Shown here: positions 6,513 to 64,000 of the stretch, piece after piece | How positions within the stretch are numbered: the stretch's first letter is position 1 | Layout of the letters: the number at the start of each line of letters is the position of its first letter | Origin: an uncultured Ruminococcus sp. | Lineage (GTDB): Bacteria; Bacillota; Clostridia; Oscillospirales; Ruminococcaceae | DNA length: 64,000 nt | Assembly: GCA_902780505.1 (NCBI GenBank) | Contig: CACZFN010000008.1 | Span: 1-64,000 of the forward strand | Reading direction: 5' to 3' | Translations under genes and position numbers: made by a program | The notes under the pieces: model-generated | The model's input: only the letters and a program-made list of their open reading frames with translations | What the model was told of the DNA's origin: nothing | The model's database searches: none

Positions 6513-7659
6513 AGCTTACTAACCATATGCTGCCCATATCGTCGGGAGAGAAACGTCTTAGTTTTATCTTGCCTGATGTATCAGTGCAAACTACTTTTTT
6601 ATAATTGCACGCACCGGCCGATATCCTGTATCTTCTGTTGCCGAGTGCTGAAAATCTGAAAACAGCCGGTGAGCAGTCTTTCTTTTGGCGTAAAGCGCAC
6701 TTGAAATTCTTGCTTATAAAGCTTCCGTCACAGCATTTTATCGAAAAACTGCCGTCATCATTTAGAACTGCATAAAAATGCTGCCCTTTGTTATTTCCCG
6801 CGCTGTCTAAAAAAACACTCCTGCCGTTATAGGTGAGATAACCGCCTGTAAGTTCGTTTTTTATTGTGTATCTTTTGCCGTCAAGCAGGAAATTGCCGTT
6901 GTTTTTGTTAGCATCTTCATAAAACCTTATTAACAGTCCTGCCGTGTATTGCTGTGCAGGGGGTATGGTGGCAAGACATATTCTGTCATATGTTTTTTCA
7001 TCAAGTGTAAGAACATCTGATGCGTATCCTGAACTGAATTTTGAAAGCCTGTTTGCCGCAGCACCGAGATTGTTTTCATACGCTTTCAGAACACGCCTGT
7101 CAAGACTTTTGGGTGAATCTATCGCTTTGCATTTATTCTGTGCATAGCTTTCAAATGCACAGTGCGGGTTTTTAGGTCTGTCCATATACCTTATACCTGA
7201 GGAATGTACAACACAACCTATATCCTGAATAAAATGCGCCGCCCTGCCAAGACAGTACATCGCCTGTTCTGTTCTGCCGCTTTTATATAAAGAGAGCGCA
7301 CAGGTGTAGTTTTCTTCAAGCAAAGTCCTTGCACTTTTGCTGAATTTACCGAGCCTGTTTTTGTAGTAGCCGTTTTTGTCAGATAACGCTTTCCCTTTTG
7401 CGTTGGCAGCGCAGTAGTAGTGCACGCCGCTTCCTTTGTCAATATCGCCTTTTTTGTCAGGGGCAACTGCGCCTTTTTCAAGTATTGACGTATATCGCGC
7501 GTAAAAATCATAAAATTTGTTCCTGTCGGTTTTATATAAAAGTGTCAGCGCTTTTGCAAGGATATCCTTATGAGTGCTGCCAAACCACGCATATGCTTTT
7601 TTTGCGTGAAGCATGGCATATACACCGGTTACTGCTGAAATTGCGACAAGCTTTTTCAT
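6511..7659 (-). CDS. Secreted zinc-dependent phospholipase C family protein with a beta-trefoil-like C-terminus
   Basis: The 382-residue protein starts with a signal peptide (about 1-24) ending AYA, so maturation would expose Trp25, matching the N-terminal Trp zinc ligand of clostridial alpha-toxin. Further candidate zinc ligands occur in family order: His30, Asp68, His80, His142, Asp146, His152, His166 and Glu170. The spacings D-x11-H, H-x3-D, H-x9-H and H-x3-E match the family. The C-terminal part (about 255-382) is not an obvious PLAT domain. It has repeated short beta motifs resembling a ricin- or fascin-type trefoil (inference). It is the last gene of its operon, overlapping the preceding gene by ATGA. 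The substrate, phospholipid or another phosphoester, is not shown by the sequence. Confidence 0.75.
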   Translation of the reverse strand: MKKLVAISAVTGVYAMLHAKKAYAWFGSTHKDILAKALTLLYKTDRNKFYDFYARYTSILEKGAVAPDKKGDIDKGSGVHYYCAANAKGKALSDKNGYYKNRLGKFSKSARTLLEENYTCALSLYKSGRTEQAMYCLGRAAHFIQDIGCVVHSSGIRYMDRPKNPHCAFESYAQNKCKAIDSPKSLDRRVLKAYENNLGAAANRLSKFSSGYASDVLTLDEKTYDRICLATIPPAQQYTAGLLIRFYEDANKNNGNFLLDGKRYTIKNELTGGYLTYNGRSVFLDSAGNNKGQHFYAVLNDDGSFSIKCCDGSFISKNFKCALRQKKDCSPAVFRFSALGNRRYRISAGACNYKKVVCTDTSGKIKLRRFSPDDMGSIWLVS

Positions 7660-41803: not shown

Positions 41804-42936
41804 TAAGACGTGTTATTGCGGTAATGCTTTTTCTTTTTCTTCTTTTCCAGCCTGTCAGGGTATATGCTTCAGACAGTGCAGATACTTCAGATCAGATTAC
41901 CCGATTAAAGCAGCAAACGTCATCTTCACTTGATGATATTATTGACGACGACACAAAGCAGACGCTTGAGCAAATGGATATCACCCCCGATAACACTTCG
42001 GGGGTAAACAGAATAAGTGTATCAAAAATCTTATCTTCTATTTATGAAAGCTTTTTGTCAGCTCTTGTATCTCCGTTTAAAATGCTTGGCAGACTGACAG
42101 CAATTTGTCTGTTCTGTACAGTGATAAGCTCTGTAACACAGGATTCTTCACTTTCATCACTCTATCAGCGTATCTCGCTGCTTGTAACTGTCACTGTGCT
42201 GTATGACAGCCTCAGCCTTGCTGTACAATCGCTTTCTTCTTCGCTTAATGACATAACGCTGTTTATGTCGGGATATATCCCGTTGTTTTCGGGTGTTTTG
42301 GCATCAAGTGCCAATATCGGCGGTGCAGCGGGTTATTACAGCTCAATGTTTGTATTGTGCGAGGTCATAACTTTTGTATCAACTTCGCTTCTGCTGCCGC
42401 TGTTGAGTGTAGTTATTGCATTTAATATTATAGGAAGCATCGGACTTGATATCAACGTAAGCGGTATATGCTCGCAGATAAACAGTGTGGTCAAGTGGGT
42501 ACTTTCAGCTCTTATGATGATATTTACGGGCGTTGTTTCATTAAAAGGGATAAACTCGGCCGCCGCCGACACACTTGCCTCAAAAACTGCAAGATTTGCA
42601 GCTTCAAGTTTTATCCCCCTTGTCGGCGGTGCAGTGTCGGAAGCTTATTCTGCTATATATGGCAGTCTTGGCGTGATAAGGTCAGGTGTCGGCGTGATAG
42701 GAATTGCAGCTGTATCTGTAATAGCGTTAAGACCGATCATAGCAGTATGTGCGCTTAAACTTGTCCTGTCACTCGCTGCGATTATCAACCGCCTGTTCGG
42801 GCAGGAACGCTGTGCGGGTTTTATTTCCGGGCTTAACAGTGTATTGTCTATCGGACTTGGTATAATCATAGCTATGTCCATGATATTTGTAATATCTACA
42901 GCGGTCATTCTGCTCACATCAATGCATTTGATCTGA
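41800..42936 (+). CDS. spoIIIAE: Stage III sporulation protein SpoIIIAE
   Basis: A 378-residue polytopic membrane protein with a signal-like N-terminus (VIAVMLFLFLLFQPVRVYA) and repeated hydrophobic helices, including PLFSGVLASSANIGGAAGYYSSM and the long C-terminal RLFGQERCAGFISGLNSVLS region typical of SpoIIIAE. Coupled to spoIIIAD. Confidence 0.93.
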   Translation: MIRRVIAVMLFLFLLFQPVRVYASDSADTSDQITRLKQQTSSSLDDIIDDDTKQTLEQMDITPDNTSGVNRISVSKILSSIYESFLSALVSPFKMLGRLTAICLFCTVISSVTQDSSLSSLYQRISLLVTVTVLYDSLSLAVQSLSSSLNDITLFMSGYIPLFSGVLASSANIGGAAGYYSSMFVLCEVITFVSTSLLLPLLSVVIAFNIIGSIGLDINVSGICSQINSVVKWVLSALMMIFTGVVSLKGINSAAADTLASKTARFAASSFIPLVGGAVSEAYSAIYGSLGVIRSGVGVIGIAAVSVIALRPIIAVCALKLVLSLAAIINRLFGQERCAGFISGLNSVLSIGLGIIIAMSMIFVISTAVILLTSMHLI

Positions 42937-58679: not shown

Positions 58680-59897
58680 ATGGGATTACTTGAAATTCTT
58701 TCACCGGTCGGTGATATGGAAAGATTATATGCAGCACTCGATTTTGGGGCTGATGCCGTTTATCTTGGCGGTACTGCTTTTGGTATGCGTGCAGCATCTG
58801 CCAAATTTGATGCACAAAGCCTTAAAACCGCCTGTGAAGAAGCACATTCACGCGGAAAAAGGGTATACCTTACCTGCAATACGCTTCCGCATAATAACGA
58901 AATGCCGCTGCTTGAAGGCTTTATAAAGGACGCTCAGGCGGCAGGCGTTGATGCACTTATTGCAAATGATATAGGTGTTTTCTCGCTTATAAAAAAATAT
59001 GCGCCCGATATGGAAATACATATTTCAACTCAGGCTGGTATAGTAAACTATGTAACAGCAAATGAATTCTATAATATGGGGGCCAAGCGTGTTGTGCTCG
59101 CAAGAGAGCTTTCACTTGATGAAATAGCCGAAATACGAGCTAAAACTCCGAAAGAACTTGAAATAGAATGCTTTGTTCACGGTGCTATGTGCGTAAGCTT
59201 TTCGGGAAGATGCCTACTTTCACAATACCTTATAAATCGTGATGCCAACAGGGGTGAATGTGCTCAGCCTTGCAGGTGGGGCTATCACCTTATGGAAGAA
59301 AAAAGGGCAGGGGAGTATTACCCTATATTTGAGGACGAAAAGGGGAGTTACATATTAAATGCTAAAGATATGTGCCTCATTGACCATATTGATAAGCTTG
59401 CTAAAGCAGGTATAGACAGCTTCAAGATAGAGGGCAGGGCAAAATCGTCTTACTATGTTTCAGTAGTTACAAATGCATATAGAATGGCTATGGATATCTA
59501 TAAAAAAGAACCTGATAATTATAAGCTTCCGCAGTGGATTCATGATGAAGTTTTCAAGGTAAGTCACCGCGCTTACTGCACAGGTTTTTTCTTCGGGCAC
59601 CCAAAAGACAGTCAGTATTACGAAAACAGCGGATATATAAGAAGCTATGATGTTGTGGCAATTGTCGATAAATGTGAAAATGGGCGTATATATGCAACAC
59701 AGCGCAATAAATTCAATAAAGGCGACGAACTTGAAATACTTGCACCGTATAAAGAACCTGTAAAAATCAAGGCAGATACGCTTTTTGATGAATATGATAA
59801 TGAAATTGATACAGCAAATCATGCTATGATGAAATTATCTATAAAAAGTGATGTTACAGTACCCGGGAATTCTATTATAAGAATGCAGGCACAGTAA
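58680..59897 (+). CDS. Peptidase U32 family protein
   Basis: A 405-residue U32 protein: LSPVGDMERLYAALDFGADAVYLGG, AREL SLDEIAEIR region, the signature EIECFVHGAMCVSFSGRCLLSQYL, NRGECAQPCRW and SFKIEGRAKSSYYV. The cysteines suggest an Fe-S site. Members (TrhP/YegQ type) act in prephenate-dependent tRNA U34 hydroxylation; protease activity is doubtful. mltG followed by U32 genes matches the Bacillus yrrL-yrrO order. Confidence 0.9.
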   Translation: MGLLEILSPVGDMERLYAALDFGADAVYLGGTAFGMRAASAKFDAQSLKTACEEAHSRGKRVYLTCNTLPHNNEMPLLEGFIKDAQAAGVDALIANDIGVFSLIKKYAPDMEIHISTQAGIVNYVTANEFYNMGAKRVVLARELSLDEIAEIRAKTPKELEIECFVHGAMCVSFSGRCLLSQYLINRDANRGECAQPCRWGYHLMEEKRAGEYYPIFEDEKGSYILNAKDMCLIDHIDKLAKAGIDSFKIEGRAKSSYYVSVVTNAYRMAMDIYKKEPDNYKLPQWIHDEVFKVSHRAYCTGFFFGHPKDSQYYENSGYIRSYDVVAIVDKCENGRIYATQRNKFNKGDELEILAPYKEPVKIKADTLFDEYDNEIDTANHAMMKLSIKSDVTVPGNSIIRMQAQ

Positions 59898-59941
59898 AAA
59901 CAGCACCCGTTGTAATATAAGTTTACAACGGGTGCTGTTTT
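59897..59941. terminator. Bidirectional terminator between U32 gene and recombinase
   Basis: AAAACAGCACCCGTTGTAA pairs with TTACAACGGGTGCTGTTTT nearly perfectly around ATATAAGT, with T runs on both strands, between convergent genes. Confidence 0.95.
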
Positions 59942-60977
59942 ATTCTTCATCATCTTCATTATCAGAAGGCTTTTTTTGCTTGTTTGTTATTTTTTTAACA
60001 TTTGCCAGAGGGTTAGCATCAGCGGCATCTTTAAGGTTTTGATTTGATAGATGCGTGTAGATCTCGGTAGTTGCTATGCTCTTGTGGCCTAAAATATCCT
60101 TTAGCACGAGAGTGTCAACATTCCCGTGCTGATACATAAGAGTAGCGGCTGTATGGCGCAGCTTATGTGTGGTTATACCTTTGTTTCCAAGCCCGGCAAG
60201 ATTTATGTTTTCTTCAACGATCTGCTGAACACGCCGCCTTGCGATCCTTGTTCGGTTTGCAGAAAAAAACATAGCGTTCTTGTGCTCTGCCGAACGCGGA
60301 ACTATCTGCCGACGCACCTGCAAATAATCATTCAGCGAATTAATACAGGCATTGTTCAAATAGACGATACGTTCTTTATTGCCTTTGCCCAAAAGTCTTA
60401 ATGTTCCGTTTTCTTCGCTGTAATCATTCAGATTAAGCCCCACAAGTTCACTTAATCGCATACCGCAGTTTAAAAAAAGTACAAGAATACAGTAATCTCT
60501 TGTGTAGTTCTTAGAATCCTTGTTCATATTTTGCAGAAGTTCCAAGCTTTCATCAAGTGTAAGATATTTTGGTAACGACTGATTAATATGCGGAAGTTCA
60601 AGATCGTTGAGCGGATCTTCCTCTATAACGCCTGATTTTTTACACAAAAAATGGAAAAGCTGTTTAATGGCAGTTGCTTTCCGAGCTCTTGTCTTTACCG
60701 AATTCTTACGTTCGTCTTTAAGATATTTTAGGTACGAATATGCATCCGTGAGCGTGAAAGTTTTGAGCCAGTCGATCGGAACATCTTTTATTTCCAAGCT
60801 TTCAAATTCAGCATCTTCTGGCACATCGTCATGAATCAGGCGCAGATATCTCAAAAAAGTCCGGATATCTATATAATATGCTTCTTCTGTTCTGTCCGAT
60901 CTGTCCTTAATAACTTTCAAATTAACTAAAAAAGCATCAAGATAATCAGGACAATCTTTTTTGTATTTTTGTTTCAT
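59940..60977 (-). CDS. XerC/XerD-type tyrosine recombinase
   Basis: A 345-residue tyrosine recombinase. SAM-like N-terminal domain (about 8-125), then catalytic residues Arg174 (GMRLSEL), Lys198 (GKGNKER), His271 and Arg274 (THKLRHTA), His298 (LGHKS) and Tyr307 (TEIYTH). All six are present, so it should be active. The C-terminal tail is charged (KKITNKQKKPSDNEDDEE). Its start is 205 bases from the left 39-bp repeat of the rep element. It may be the housekeeping Xer protein or the recombinase the element uses; the sequence cannot decide. Confidence 0.9.
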   Translation of the reverse strand: MKQKYKKDCPDYLDAFLVNLKVIKDRSDRTEEAYYIDIRTFLRYLRLIHDDVPEDAEFESLEIKDVPIDWLKTFTLTDAYSYLKYLKDERKNSVKTRARKATAIKQLFHFLCKKSGVIEEDPLNDLELPHINQSLPKYLTLDESLELLQNMNKDSKNYTRDYCILVLFLNCGMRLSELVGLNLNDYSEENGTLRLLGKGNKERIVYLNNACINSLNDYLQVRRQIVPRSAEHKNAMFFSANRTRIARRRVQQIVEENINLAGLGNKGITTHKLRHTAATLMYQHGNVDTLVLKDILGHKSIATTEIYTHLSNQNLKDAADANPLANVKKITNKQKKPSDNEDDEE

Positions 60978-61181: not shown

Positions 61182-61220
61182 AAGGTCTGATATAAATAGT
61201 ATAATGAGTAAAACGCAGAT
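61182..61220. repeat. 39-bp direct repeat, left copy (candidate attachment site)
   Basis: Begins AAGGTCTGATATAAATAGTA and matches 63663-63701 in the same orientation with one mismatch (C at 61214, T at 63695). Homology stops sharply at both edges. On the minus strand it would encode ICVLLIILFISDL, a fragment of the CmpB-family gene at the right end. To its left, 60978-61181 holds no gene; it has a palindromic GCGTGCACGC. Confidence 0.85.
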
Positions 61221-61261
61221 GTCCAAAAGGCTCTGTAAAGGTTGAAATATAATCCCCCGAG

Positions 61262-61287
61262 TTGCACTAAATTTTGATTTAGTGCAA
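61262..61287. repeat. Perfect hairpin at left end of element
   Basis: TTGCACTAAAT (61262-61272), loop TTTG, ATTTAGTGCAA (61277-61287). The right arm recurs at 63498-63508 near the other end, with similarity continuing to 18 bases (16 of 18). Confidence 0.9.
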
Positions 61288-61382
61288 GTTTGTGTCTATC
61301 TCTGGCAGCCGTTGCGGGAGGGACTTCCCTGTTTGTTTTAAGGGGTGTTTGTAACTATCCCGAGGGTATCGTCAAGGCAGGG

Positions 61383-61568
61383 GTTACTCTTGTTAACACT
61401 GCACTAACGTGCAGTGAGGCCGCAAGCGACCACCTCCGCTTCGCTTCGGCGTTCCATTGCTAAAAAGTGAGCCAGTCGCTTCGCTCGTTGTCTCCCTTTT
61501 TGCCTACAAGAGTAACTGGCGTTGCCCTCTGCGCGCTAACGCTTGCTCTCCGTGAGCCTTCGGCTCAC
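61383..61568. repeat. Hairpin cluster downstream of rep
   Basis: CACTGCAC-TAAC-GTGCAGTG (61397-61416) and GTGAGCC-TTC-GGCTCAC (61552-61568) are perfect stem-loops. GTTACTCTTG (61383-61392) and CAAGAGTAAC (61507-61516) are a perfect 10-bp inverted repeat enclosing the first of them. The stretch between 61221 and 61641 shows no credible gene. Confidence 0.85.
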
Positions 61569-61641
61569 TGCGCGTCGCTTCGCTCCTTGCCTTCGCTTCG
61601 GGACAGGCTTTGCTATGTCTACGGTTTTCCGTACTTGCCTT

Positions 61642-62841
61642 TTAGATATATTCAAGTACGAGCTTTATAGCACGGATAATATTTGACTTTTCAAGATTAT
61701 TTGAAAACATACTATCAGAGCGCATAGCATTTGCGAACTCCACTCTCTTGTCGGCGCAGTCGAGGTAGTCCTCTGTGTGACCATATATGTTTATATAGCT
61801 GTCAGTGTATATGTATTCGTTCAGTGACTGGTCATATATCCTGCAAGTGATGTCTTCGCTGTCCATATCGTACCACGTCTTTATCCTGCGGTAGAGCTGT
61901 TTGATGTCCTCGCCCTCTTTGGAGTAGAAGTTCTTGTACCATTCGTTCAGCGGCTTGACCGACGTTATGATGAAATACTGACAGTTGAGCACCTGGTCAA
62001 CAAAGCGTGCTTTCTGTGTGCTTGCCCAGTGATTGTCAAGCATGGTGTGTATCTGTGCAGGCTTGAACACGTCATCTCTTGCATCTGACCAGATTATGAC
62101 GTCCTGGCCCATGTAGTCATCAAAGGGTGATTTGTCGTTGTTGCCAGTTGTAAAGTACGACAGTCCTTTGTCTTCGCACCACGAGCGTGCAAAGCTGTCC
62201 TTTCCTACTCCGCTTTCGCCTGATATGAAGATTACTTCCATTCGGCGCTCGGATTCAAGCTTAAGCTCTCTTGTGCGCCTTGCAAATGCAGTTTTGACAG
62301 CAGATGCGTACTGTGTTTCTTCGTAGGGCGTGAGCTTTTCACTCAGATTGTACTGCCTTATCTCTCCGCTTGCTATGGCGTCTACTATTTCTTTCTCACG
62401 GGCTTTGTTTTTTGTCAGGAGCTTTGCCTGATGTGCGCTTTCGGATTCGAGCTCCCAGTCGAAGTTGCTTTGTACTTCGCTGTTTTCGTAGACGTGTTTC
62501 CACGGCTTGTGCTCGTCCCTGTGCGTGAGGTAGTTCAGTGCGCCTGACCATGACTTCATCTTCTGTATGCGGTTGTCTGTTATGCAGTCCTCTGATAGTC
62601 CTACGCGCTTTGCTCTTGCAAGTATCGCAGAGGTGTGTACTGCGCAGTTAAACCTGAGCATAAGGTGTATGTGCGGTTCTCTCGGAGTTACATTATCGTC
62701 CTTTTTGTCTTTGTCATGCACTATGTACGCATAGTCTTTGACTGATGACCAGCCGTCAAGGAATTCTTTTACTTTATCCTCTGTCCAGCCGTAAGAGCAG
62801 TCTTGTGTTATCTCGCAGGTTTTCCATGATTTGTCCGCCAT
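61642..62841 (-). CDS. rep: Rep protein: HUH endonuclease fused to superfamily 3 helicase (CRESS-like)
   Basis: The 399-residue product starts replication by nicking (family knowledge). HUH domain: motif I AYIVHDKD (38-45), motif II PHIHLML with His57 and His59, motif III ALNYLTHRD with candidate catalytic Tyr104. Helicase domain: Walker A GESGVGKD (208-215), Walker B VIIWSDARDD (248-257), motif C FIITSVKPLNEWY (290-302), and a candidate arginine finger in YRRIK (317-321). This order is that of CRESS-DNA virus Reps and bacterial pCRESS plasmid Reps; the N-terminus resembles Rep_2 plasmid proteins. RBS AAGGAG precedes the ATG. A consensus promoter and iterons lie upstream. Confidence 0.88.
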   Translation of the reverse strand: MADKSWKTCEITQDCSYGWTEDKVKEFLDGWSSVKDYAYIVHDKDKKDDNVTPREPHIHLMLRFNCAVHTSAILARAKRVGLSEDCITDNRIQKMKSWSGALNYLTHRDEHKPWKHVYENSEVQSNFDWELESESAHQAKLLTKNKAREKEIVDAIASGEIRQYNLSEKLTPYEETQYASAVKTAFARRTRELKLESERRMEVIFISGESGVGKDSFARSWCEDKGLSYFTTGNNDKSPFDDYMGQDVIIWSDARDDVFKPAQIHTMLDNHWASTQKARFVDQVLNCQYFIITSVKPLNEWYKNFYSKEGEDIKQLYRRIKTWYDMDSEDITCRIYDQSLNEYIYTDSYINIYGHTEDYLDCADKRVEFANAMRSDSMFSNNLEKSNIIRAIKLVLEYI

Positions 62842-62861
62842 CGGGCTCTCTCCTTTCTGTA

Positions 62862-63020
62862 TTTACTACTTTTTTGAGCTTATTACCGCCTTTTTTACTA
62901 CTTTTACTACCTTTTACTACGTTCCTTAGACAAGCCCAAGGAACGTAGCGTTTATGCCTTATTTACGTTGTTTTATGATATTTTTGTATTTTGATTTACT
63001 ACTTTTACTACCTTTACTAC
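62862..63020. repeat. Seven TTTACTAC iterons upstream of rep
   Basis: Exact copies of TTTACTAC start at 62862, 62894, 62903, 62913, 62995, 63004 and 63013. Two groups of three are spaced 9-10 bases apart. They lie in the rep leader, between its promoter and start codon, like Rep-binding iterons of replication origins. Confidence 0.85.
62917..62948. other. Candidate nicking-origin hairpin between iteron groups
   Basis: CTACGTTCCTT (62917-62927) and AAGGAACGTAG (62938-62948) form a perfect 11-bp inverted repeat with a 10-base loop AGACAAGCCC. It sits directly beside the iterons, as a double-strand origin would. The nick position is not known. Confidence 0.65.
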
Positions 63021-63024
63021 CTTA

Positions 63025-63053
63025 ATTATATAGCTTTAATGTTGTTTTGTCAA
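63025..63053 (-). promoter_or_regulatory. Consensus promoter of rep
   Basis: On the minus strand TTGACA (63048-63053) and TATAAT (63025-63030) with a 17-base spacer. Three iterons lie just downstream of the start site, suggesting Rep could repress its own promoter. Confidence 0.85.
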
Positions 63054-63159
63054 CACTTTTACTTTAAGTTTGTATGTTTGCACAACTTTGCTATATATTA
63101 TACACAATTTGTGCAACTTGCACAAATGTTGCCGCAAACAATGGTCATCAGACAGCGAG

Positions 63160-63303
63160 CCCGCGGTGGCAAAGCCACTCGCGCTGCTCTCGTCTGCTGA
63201 CGGTTACAGTCTGTGGTGTTTGCAGCGAGTGCGTGTGTTTTACCACCCGATGTGGTTTTGTTTTGTTTGGTCTGCAATGGCTATTCGCTTTATTCAAGCG
63301 AAT
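63160..63303. repeat. Hairpins in upstream part of the element
   Basis: CGCGGTGGC-AAA-GCCAC-T-CGCG (within 63160-63197) and ATTCGCTT-TATTC-AAGCGAAT (63283-63303) are stem-loops. The stretch from 63054 to 63336 also carries TTTGCACAAC/TTTGTGCAAC-type short repeats near 63077-63128. Short ORFs in all plus frames here look like chance. Confidence 0.7.
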
Positions 63304-63336
63304 GTGCGTTTACTGCTATAGTTAGCCGCAAACTGT

Positions 63337-63505
63337 CACTAAATCACTGTTTAGCAAAACTTACGTCTTCGTTGCTGTTCGCAACTCCGTGTATTGCGAG
63401 TATTTGGGTAGTAAGTACCTTTTTATGCGCCACAGGCGCATCAAGAGGTGGGTACTTACTACTCTGGTTCTCGCAAAAGTTTCGCTAAACCTGTCATATT
63501 TAGTG
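63337..63505. other. Nested palindromic region, single-strand-origin-like
   Basis: Five nested arms: CACTAAAT/ATTTAGTG (63337, 63498), GTTTAGCAAAACTT/AAGTTTCGCTAAAC with one mismatch (63349, 63477), TTGCGAG/CTCGCAA (63394, 63470), GTAGTAAGTACC/GGTACTTACTAC (63408, 63451) and ATGCGCC/GGCGCAT with loop ACA (63425, 63435). Such long imperfect palindromes are typical of lagging-strand origins of rolling-circle plasmids; a structured RNA is the alternative. Confidence 0.75.
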
Positions 63506-63605
63506 CAACTTTTTGGATATATGTCTGCTTATGTATTATAGGTATGATAACCTCTGCTCGCCTTCTTTGTCTGGCAATTGTATAAAGCTGTTTACAGTAT
63601 TCCTT

Positions 63606-64000
63606 TTAAATCAGTCCTTCAGTTACACCATCACCGGTATTTGGATTTATTGCCGAATATCCAAGGTCTGATATAAATAGTATAATGAGTAAAATGCAGA
63701 TACGTTTTCTTATTTTTGGATCGATGTTCAGCAGCAGATTTTCTGCAAGCGGTGCAATAAAGTATGTCATTGCAACGCCTGCAAGGCCAAATACGAGTAA
63801 TCCCTCAAGACATATCCTGCCATTTAAGTTCATAAAGTAACCTGTATAATCCCACCACTTTTGGTTAAAAAGTTTTTCTAAAAGCCAAGATGTAAAATAC
63901 TCAACTCCGCCGCACACTATAATTGTTCCTAAAAACATTAATGCGGGTTTCTTTCTCAAGGGTTTTAAACCATAGATGATTATCCAGCCGCCTACACCGT
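63606..64000 (-). CDS. CmpB-family putative ABC transporter permease, 3' part (runs off window)
   Basis: The reading frame is open from the right edge to the stop at 63606-63608. It encodes a multi-span membrane protein with VGGWIIIYGLKPL, VEYFTSWLLEKLFNQKWWDYTG and NLNGRICLEGLLVFGLAGVAMTYF, the pattern of the CmpB-type (PF06541) putative ABC permease family of unknown role. A TTG at 63959 is not the true start. The 39-bp repeat (right copy) lies in codons near the 3' end (RICILLIILFISDL). Confidence 0.75.
   Translation of the reverse strand, partial: GVGGWIIIYGLKPLRKKPALMFLGTIIVCGGVEYFTSWLLEKLFNQKWWDYTGYFMNLNGRICLEGLLVFGLAGVAMTYFIAPLAENLLLNIDPKIRKRICILLIILFISDLGYSAINPNTGDGVTEGLI
63663..63701. 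repeat. 39-bp direct repeat, right copy
   Basis: Matches 61182-61220 with one mismatch. It lies within the coding end of the CmpB-family gene, 57 bases before its stop codon, the kind of place where site-specific integrases often insert. Confidence 0.85.

Follow-up and report, generated by a model that had tools for sequence, protein, structure and literature searches.

A pCRESS-type Rep element at a predicted dif site beside a host Xer recombinase gene in a Ruminococcus-related genome

We analysed a 64,000-nt stretch of DNA (the window; positions 1 to 64,000 of contig CACZFN010000008.1, assembly GCA_902780505.1) from an uncultured Ruminococcus sp. Near its right end lies rep (61642..62841, minus strand), a single open frame with an ATG start that encodes a 399-aa protein combining an HUH endonuclease with an SF3 helicase. 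Across a gap of 664 bp to the left is a gene for a 345-aa Xer-type tyrosine recombinase, here named xerX (59940..60977, minus strand; PF00589, E = 2.6e-36), and beyond it a host gene for a U32-family peptidase (58680..59897, plus strand; PF01136, E = 4.3e-92) that marks the conserved, xerX-bearing side of the locus. Between xerX and rep is a 30-bp near-palindrome, AGTTGCACTAAA-N6-TTTAGTGCAAGT (61260..61289), the predicted dif site and attL. On the other side of rep lie a predicted origin stem-loop and two degenerate dif-like sites, R2 and R, and the window ends within a minus-strand gene for a CmpB-like ABC-transporter-type protein (63606..63998, open at the window end; PF06541, E = 2.1e-32). 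In the whole 65.7-kb contig the 12-mer TTTAGTGCAACT has just two exact copies, one at each end of the Rep region. Measured from the near-palindrome to the end of R (61260-63510), the element is 2.25 kb long, and Rep is its sole ORF of at least 100 aa.

The original prediction of HUH and SF3 modules in one 399-residue protein is borne out by Pfam, AlphaFold2 and Foldseek alike. The nuclease part covers approximately residues 1-128 and the SF3 helicase part approximately residues 196-345. Two Pfam profiles match above their cut-offs, Rep_OBD (PF01719) on residues 32-128 (E = 9.7e-10) and RNA_helicase (PF00910) on residues 204-265 (E = 7.6e-5); NCBIfam models gave zero matches. The AlphaFold2 model is confident (mean pLDDT 90.6, pTM 0.69), and Foldseek matched it to the origin-binding domain of pMV158 RepB (8amt, TM 0.73 by target), the ATPase of PCV2 Rep (8xms, TM at most 0.78 by target), the Vientovirus Rep (9pqq, E = 2.8e-11) and AAV structures. 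Searched by sequence, the solved structures gave no good match (best E = 0.26).

Conservation was assessed in an alignment of 35 rows, made up of the window Rep and 34 others, drawn from the 110 proteins that a search returned at E ≤ 1e-3. Every row has the same residue at H42, H57, H59, Y104, H107, K214 and D253, and conservation at D45 is 90% or higher. The earlier call of YLTH (residues 104-107) as motif III stands, with Y and H in 35/35 rows and L in 29/35. The call of VHDKD as motif I does not: its H42 and D45 presumably match the extra metal ligands of RepB-type Reps, and motif I is most likely CEITQ (residues 9-13), judged by its position in the first strand of the model. The usual form of motif I is UUTU (PMC6668415). 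Walker A ends in GKD where GKS/T is usual. The window Rep has Asp after the lysine, as do 23 of the 35 rows; the remaining 12 have Thr there. Walker B (IIWSD) is a variant, as had been noticed at the outset.

YLxH in motif III is described as the signature of pCRESS4-8 (PMC6668415), and Asp, Gly or Asn following the Walker A lysine is reported for pCRESS4 (PMC8780604). The window Rep has HUH and SF3 in one protein, YLxH in motif III and, in keeping with pCRESS4, Asp after the Walker A lysine. Among the best 20 of 30 matching records, the top named relatives are phytoplasma plasmids (33-38% identity over 76-84% of Rep); ten phage records also match, each covering 20-34% of the query at its nuclease end. 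The YLxH and GKD motifs, the plasmid relatives and the confinement of the phage matches to the nuclease end argue for a Rep of plasmid type, and by motif the protein fits with the pCRESS YLxH Reps, not with a virus. In the viral_contigs collection the Rep sequence found zero relatives and the Rep alignment two distant ones, and 61260-63510 offers no candidate for a capsid gene of the kind expected in Cressdnaviricota, there being no second ORF of at least 100 aa. What survives of the original prediction is a Rep of CRESS/pCRESS architecture on a small integrated replicon in a bacterial chromosome. A CRESS-virus-like nature, taken to mean a virus, finds no support, given the sole ORF of at least 100 aa in 61260-63510 and the plasmids that lead the listed named relatives. 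Nor is an undescribed branch indicated, as YLxH and GKD fit the described pCRESS4-8 supergroup, with pCRESS4 the most similar. Integrated pCRESS elements as such are known already (PMC6668415). The main finding here concerns xerX, the dif-like sites and a skew switch, none of which figured in the earlier account.

PF00589 matches 11 places in the window's genome, xerX and ten others. In bits against the NCBIfam cut-offs, xerX scores 206.7 of 329.6 for XerD, 202.3 of 335.15 for XerC, 148.9 of 267 for XerS and 180.4 of 220 for XerA. Eight of the other recombinases were scanned in the same way (those at G000:C9:35236, which has an in-frame stop, and G000:C15:58785 lay outside the scan); their highest Xer score was 103.5 bits, against XerA, with XerC and XerD giving no more than 90.6. 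Neither xerX nor any of these eight reached the XerC, XerD, XerS or XerA cut-off, in an NCBIfam set without an XerH model. xerX was found in 160 of 197 family genomes at E 1e-70, including 136 of the 147 good ones, and the gene order RecN-MltG-U32-xerX recurs in a second genome of the genus (G001) and in other genera. On the strength of this distribution and of the U32/MltG/RecN synteny in several genera, we conclude that xerX is a host gene.

Of 297 family genomes, 18 contain the pattern AGTTGCACTAAA-N6-TTTAGTGCAACT (up to 3 mismatches), each at a single place, compared with 1/297 for a reversed control; the pattern is limited to these genomes although xerX is present in most. An xerX orthologue lies within 1.5 kb of the site in 12 of the 18 and within 2.7 kb in two more. 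At L078, mutS2 adjoins the site and the contig ends 1.8 kb away, and at three sites (L081, L082 and L083) there is no xerX nearby. Ten of the 18 loci have mutS2 on the far side of the site, separated from it by the Rep element at two of them and by 8.8 kb of DNA at one. Four genomes of two other genera (L084-L087) have a clean empty site, where xerX, site and mutS2 fall within about 200 bp; one of these genomes (G233) and another of the same genus (G077) carry a distant Rep match away from the site.

Of 14 oriented loci, 12 have positive GC skew on the xerX side and negative skew across the site. At the two exceptions, the skew only drops from 0.087 to 0.004 (L088) or is reversed (L092). In the window, cumulative skew peaks at approximately 60 kb. 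The G001 assembly, a near-complete chromosome, comprises a main contig of 3,555,444 bp and one of 5,680 bp, with dnaA at 3,098,729 and the site at 1,389,749, which is 48.1% of the circle away. When dnaA is taken as the origin, skew in 38 sampled 20-kb stretches is best fitted by a breakpoint at 1,390-1,400 kb, an alternative at 860-910 kb scores nearly as well, and the expected skew sign was found in 13/20 samples on one arm and 15/18 on the other. A single-copy site at a skew switch opposite the origin, beside a conserved Xer gene, is what a dif would look like (with exceptions at 3/18 sites and 2/14 loci), and we read the 30-bp site as the putative dif of an undescribed single-Xer system. 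We also compared the window contig, the G001 region and the G006 locus (L002) with a classical Firmicutes dif. The best match, 21/28, falls a short way outside R in G001 (minus strand, 1,392,362); the next best is 19, and the best in the window is 19, at 42,411. The 21/28 match overlaps a promoter-like match and was for that reason not adopted as dif, though it may be one.

Close relatives of Rep are present in 3 of 396 family genomes (100, 82 and 82% identity), those of the window, G001 and G006, all of one genus. All three Reps adjoin the site on the side opposite xerX and in one orientation, and the elements measure 2,251 bp (window), 2,603 bp and 2,572 bp from site to site. The same 3 of the 7 genus genomes hold both xerX and a close Rep; the other four, each less than 82% complete, gave neither. 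The element sits at a predicted dif, has dif-like sites on its flanks and is without an integrase of its own, as expected of an IMEX (integrative mobile element exploiting Xer). Integration at a tRNA gene was considered and rejected, the nearest tRNA being 55 kb to the left of rep; on the right, 1.2 kb of the window lies past rep.

Between window and G001, rep shows dN 0.149 and dS 1.45 (a ratio of approximately 0.10). At the DNA level the elements of G001 and G006 agree at 92-93.5% of positions, and they represent a recent copy shared by two of the three genomes; their dS is 0.24 for rep, against 2.3 for xerX (295 codons) and 1.4 for mutS2. Because the element DNA is this similar while the flanking genes are near silent-site saturation, the comparison indicates that the element has recently reached at least one of these two species, at the same site. 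In G006, the DNA past the far site repeats 49 bp of the near end of the element exactly (L002:4314-4362 and 6856-6904), as expected of a tandem or circle junction. The same locus carries an extra dif-like site (site at 7426), and the repeat and the extra site together suggest remnants of tandem copies beside xerX. Among the 15 closest of the 110 Rep proteins, the longest contig is 2,160-2,610 bp in nine, the window's own among them, which hints at free circles.

Distant Rep matches (at most 36% identity) were found in 19 more of the 396 family genomes, and wider flanks were studied for three of these (L093-L095). No such site was found at L093, L094, L095, L003, L120, L121 or L130-L134. Against 394 genomes of the order, the Rep alignment matched six at E 1e-25, the window's own included, and the five others had no such site in 2.8-4.2 kb per locus. 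L093 contains integrase-like and FtsK-like ORFs (by eye), so distant relatives may use other routes. No convincing direct repeats were found in L093 and L003.

Upstream of rep are iteron-like repeats, TTTACTACTTTTACTACC (62894-62914, 62995-63015 and 63004-63024 in the window), and a predicted origin stem-loop (62917..62948) with the stem CTACGTTCCTT/AAGGAACGTAG and the loop AGACAAGCCC (62928-62937). The loop is the same in 3/3 elements, and the stem has two two-sided compensatory changes between window and G001. The window stem also contains a pMV158-like TACTACG; it was dropped as a candidate nick site because G001 does not keep it. Farther from rep lie R2, a degenerate dif-like site within the element (63332..63361), a long stem-loop (63394..63476; arms 63394-63419 and 63451-63476) and R, or attR (63477..63510), which consists of a degenerate left arm, a 9-nt centre (9-10 nt across the elements, by eye) and the perfect right arm TTTAGTGCAACT (63499-63510).

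Folded as a single strand (one strand was computed), the R2-stem-R segment forms one extended hairpin of approximately 190 nt in which R2 pairs with R. The fold z-scores are -7.0 in the window, -9.9 in G001 and -9.1 in G006, and 0/200 shuffles were as stable in each case. Over the 26 positions of the long stem (arms set by hand), window and G001 show 18 unchanged pairs, six two-sided compensatory changes, zero one-sided changes and two unpaired positions; when the 3' changes were placed at random, equal pairing was kept in 3/20,000 trials. Since G001 and G006 are identical in this stem, the covariation amounts in effect to one comparison. The inner arm of R2/R adds two more compensatory changes and one mismatch (window versus G001). 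Two opposed dif-like sites with a predicted one-strand fold, the arrangement of the CTXphi type, are present in 3/3 elements. A match of a 17-base piece of the stem in the viral_contigs collection was put down to chance, since neither Rep nor the sites were found in the three contigs concerned.

The flanks of the window element have features of their own. A 39-bp direct repeat has one copy to the left of the dif-like site (61182..61220, plus strand) and another inside the 3' part of the cmpB-like gene (63663..63701, plus strand). The copies differ by one mismatch, are spaced 2,481 bp apart and sit 39 bp and 152 bp outside the dif-like sites; a genome search for their 29-bp core, allowing up to 3 mismatches, gave these two copies alone. 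The right site of the window element is degenerate and its right flank differs from that of its relatives: the cmpB-like gene adjoins the element in the window species, versus mutS2 in two relatives. In the window genome mutS2 is away from dif, on contig C11 (G000:C11:37794-40175), which points to an insertion or rearrangement right of the element.

Promoter-like sequences, called as consensus matches only, face xerX from beyond the predicted dif at L086:10051-10079 (12/12), L084:3107-3135 (10/12) and L020:3434-3462; L086 and L084 are empty loci, and their matches are the best ones toward xerX. These positions would place dif in the xerX leader, so that an insertion at dif would cut xerX from its promoter. 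In G001, an 11/12 match lies beyond R, on the opposite side of the element from xerX. A 10/12 match toward xerX in the window draws its second hexamer from copy 1 of the 39-bp repeat (minus strand), and the repeat may have supplied a substitute xerX promoter. Genes have also been added between xerX and the site in other genera: the interval holds a GMP-synthase C-terminal-type gene and an unknown gene at L080:7371-9838, and an unknown gene and a flavodoxin/ferredoxin-type gene at L079:7792-9803.

A second kind of element occupies the site in another genus. At L090 (G238:C100, 1190-9996), approximately 8.8 kb lie between mutS2 and the predicted dif. The ORFs include a Rep_trans initiator (E = 1.7e-34), a Zot/pI-like ATPase (7.4e-8) and an SprT-like protein (2.6e-7) by Pfam, PHROGs having been searched as well, along with a 540-aa ORF without a Pfam match; no integrase was found among the four larger ORFs scanned. 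The locus contains a diverged 123-nt repeat (72%) at a spacing of 8,359 bp, and its far end carries a left dif arm and centre. A sister locus, L089, holds a 97%-identical remnant of the phage end. The L090 element is a filamentous-phage-like prophage, unrelated to the Rep element, at the same site beside xerX, which supports an Xer hot spot.

We consider it quite probable that the Rep-only CRESS/pCRESS-type element is a rolling-circle plasmid predicted to integrate through the single-recombinase Xer/dif system of its host, that is, as an IMEX. With more reserve, we lean towards the fuller proposal that this CRESS-type plasmid inserts as folded single-stranded DNA into the dif of an undescribed single-Xer system common in the family, at a hot spot shared with filamentous phages. 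Rep would nick the stem-loop upstream of its own gene and give rise to single-stranded circles; the R2-stem-R segment of one strand would fold into a dif-like duplex; XerX would join the folded att to the chromosomal dif; and host replication would complete the insertion. Integration in this manner would leave a near-perfect dif at 61260-61289, so that chromosome-dimer resolution is maintained, and a degenerate site at 63477-63510, which would make excision rare.

The form in which the DNA enters is where an alternative deserves most attention. The element could hijack Xer/dif as double-stranded DNA, in the manner of VGJphi or the GGI, with the folded segment acting as a replication signal (a single- or double-strand origin). 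Of the two arms of R one is perfect and the other degenerate, which is also the case in double-stranded IMEX (PMC5357621); rolling-circle plasmids require origin hairpins, and near-palindromic sites readily pair with each other. We nevertheless regard this route as possible but rather unlikely: a separate origin-like stem-loop with an invariant loop already lies upstream of rep, R2 is an extra dif-like site that would otherwise be unneeded and whose inner arm with R has two compensatory changes in the window copy, and the 9-10 nt R centres are reminiscent of CTXphi attP1, whose centre is likewise long (12 bp).

Other explanations carry much less weight. That another integrase acted at the 39-bp repeats, the dif-like sites being coincidental cargo, would suit the position of these repeats around the Rep region and of one copy within the 3' part of a gene, where att sites are often found. 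This seems improbable given that no such repeat was found around the G001 and G006 elements (the 49-bp repeat of G006 is different and belongs to the element end), that the site adjoins xerX in genomes without Rep there, and that 39 bp on one side and 152 bp on the other separate the repeats from the dif-like sites. Equally hard to favour is a dead or domesticated relic, an old Rep retained for a host function; the odd right flank and degenerate right site of the window copy would agree with decay, but the frame is open, the catalytic residues and stem-loops are conserved, dN/dS is about 0.10, and G001 and G006 shared the element recently. Least credible of all is that xerX serves the element as its own integrase, with the palindrome as att rather than dif. 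xerX and the close Rep do co-occur in the same 3/7 genus genomes, yet xerX is found in 160/197 family genomes against 22/396 with any Rep match, and it keeps a recurring synteny with U32/MltG/RecN and mutS2 at a skew switch. We therefore retain host-Xer integration of a plasmid-type element as the preferred reading.

If this reading is correct, it provides a candidate dif/Xer system for a family in which the literature surveyed names none, and it connects CRESS-type replicons with the way filamentous phages are known to integrate, by Xer on a single strand. The element would be the plasmid counterpart of CTXphi integration and, with one gene plus cis sites, a minimal integrating replicon, and its small parts, one recombinase, a 30-bp site and an att segment of approximately 200 nt, are directly testable. 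Several lineages of eukaryotic ssDNA viruses have been proposed to derive from the plasmid relatives of such replicons (PMC6668415). We found no literature joining pCRESS with Xer/dif, or describing a dif/Xer system of this family, among open-access titles and abstract openings, and 'pCRESS' and 'Xer' appear together in 0 of the open-access papers searched.

Most YLxH Reps, pCRESS7 apart, are described as residing in elements that are integrated site-specifically and have no known genes for viral structural proteins (PMC6668415); the terms 'dif site', 'Xer', 'integrase' and 'recombinase' are absent from the main text of that paper, and its supplement may still mention them. The window element resembles pCRESS4-8 in its HUH and SF3 modules and its YLxH motif III, and pCRESS4 in its GKD Walker A. 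It differs from pCRESS4-8 in having no integrase and using a predicted dif, and from pCRESS4 in the length of Rep, which averages 584 aa there (PMC8780604) and is 399 aa here. The phytoplasma plasmids (NC_019246 and others) are similar in Rep, but theirs are free plasmid records.

CTXphi is described as having two opposed attP sites approximately 90 bp apart, one of them (attP1) with a 12-bp centre (PMC4246890); its attP folds as a single strand for the host Xer recombinases, and integration is irreversible (PMC4246890, PMC5357621). Phage dif-like sites are reported to have longer centres and a degenerate arm (Kono 2011, PMC3025954), a description that R shares. Like CTXphi, the window element has no integrase, a predicted host-Xer route at dif, opposed sites (115 nt apart here) and a long centre. 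Unlike CTXphi, it consists of Rep and cis sites only, without phage genes, its Rep is of CRESS type, and it would depend on one recombinase in a Ruminococcus-related host. The counterpart of Rep in the CTXphi phage is RstA.

The single Xer gene is a feature shared with XerS/difSL and XerH/difH (PMC5357621). xerX remains under the XerS cut-off (148.9 of 267 bits), and its own site is a near-perfect palindrome. The closest parallel in the manner of discovery is LME-1/XerL of Legionella (PMC9765430), where the att site of a mobile element revealed an unrecognised single-recombinase dif/Xer system, as att sites would have done here. LME-1 belongs to a different phylum with a different recombinase, is phage-like and was bench-tested, whereas the present case is a prediction. 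The pieces are of known kinds, a pCRESS plasmid, an IMEX and a single-Xer system, and it is their combination that looks new.
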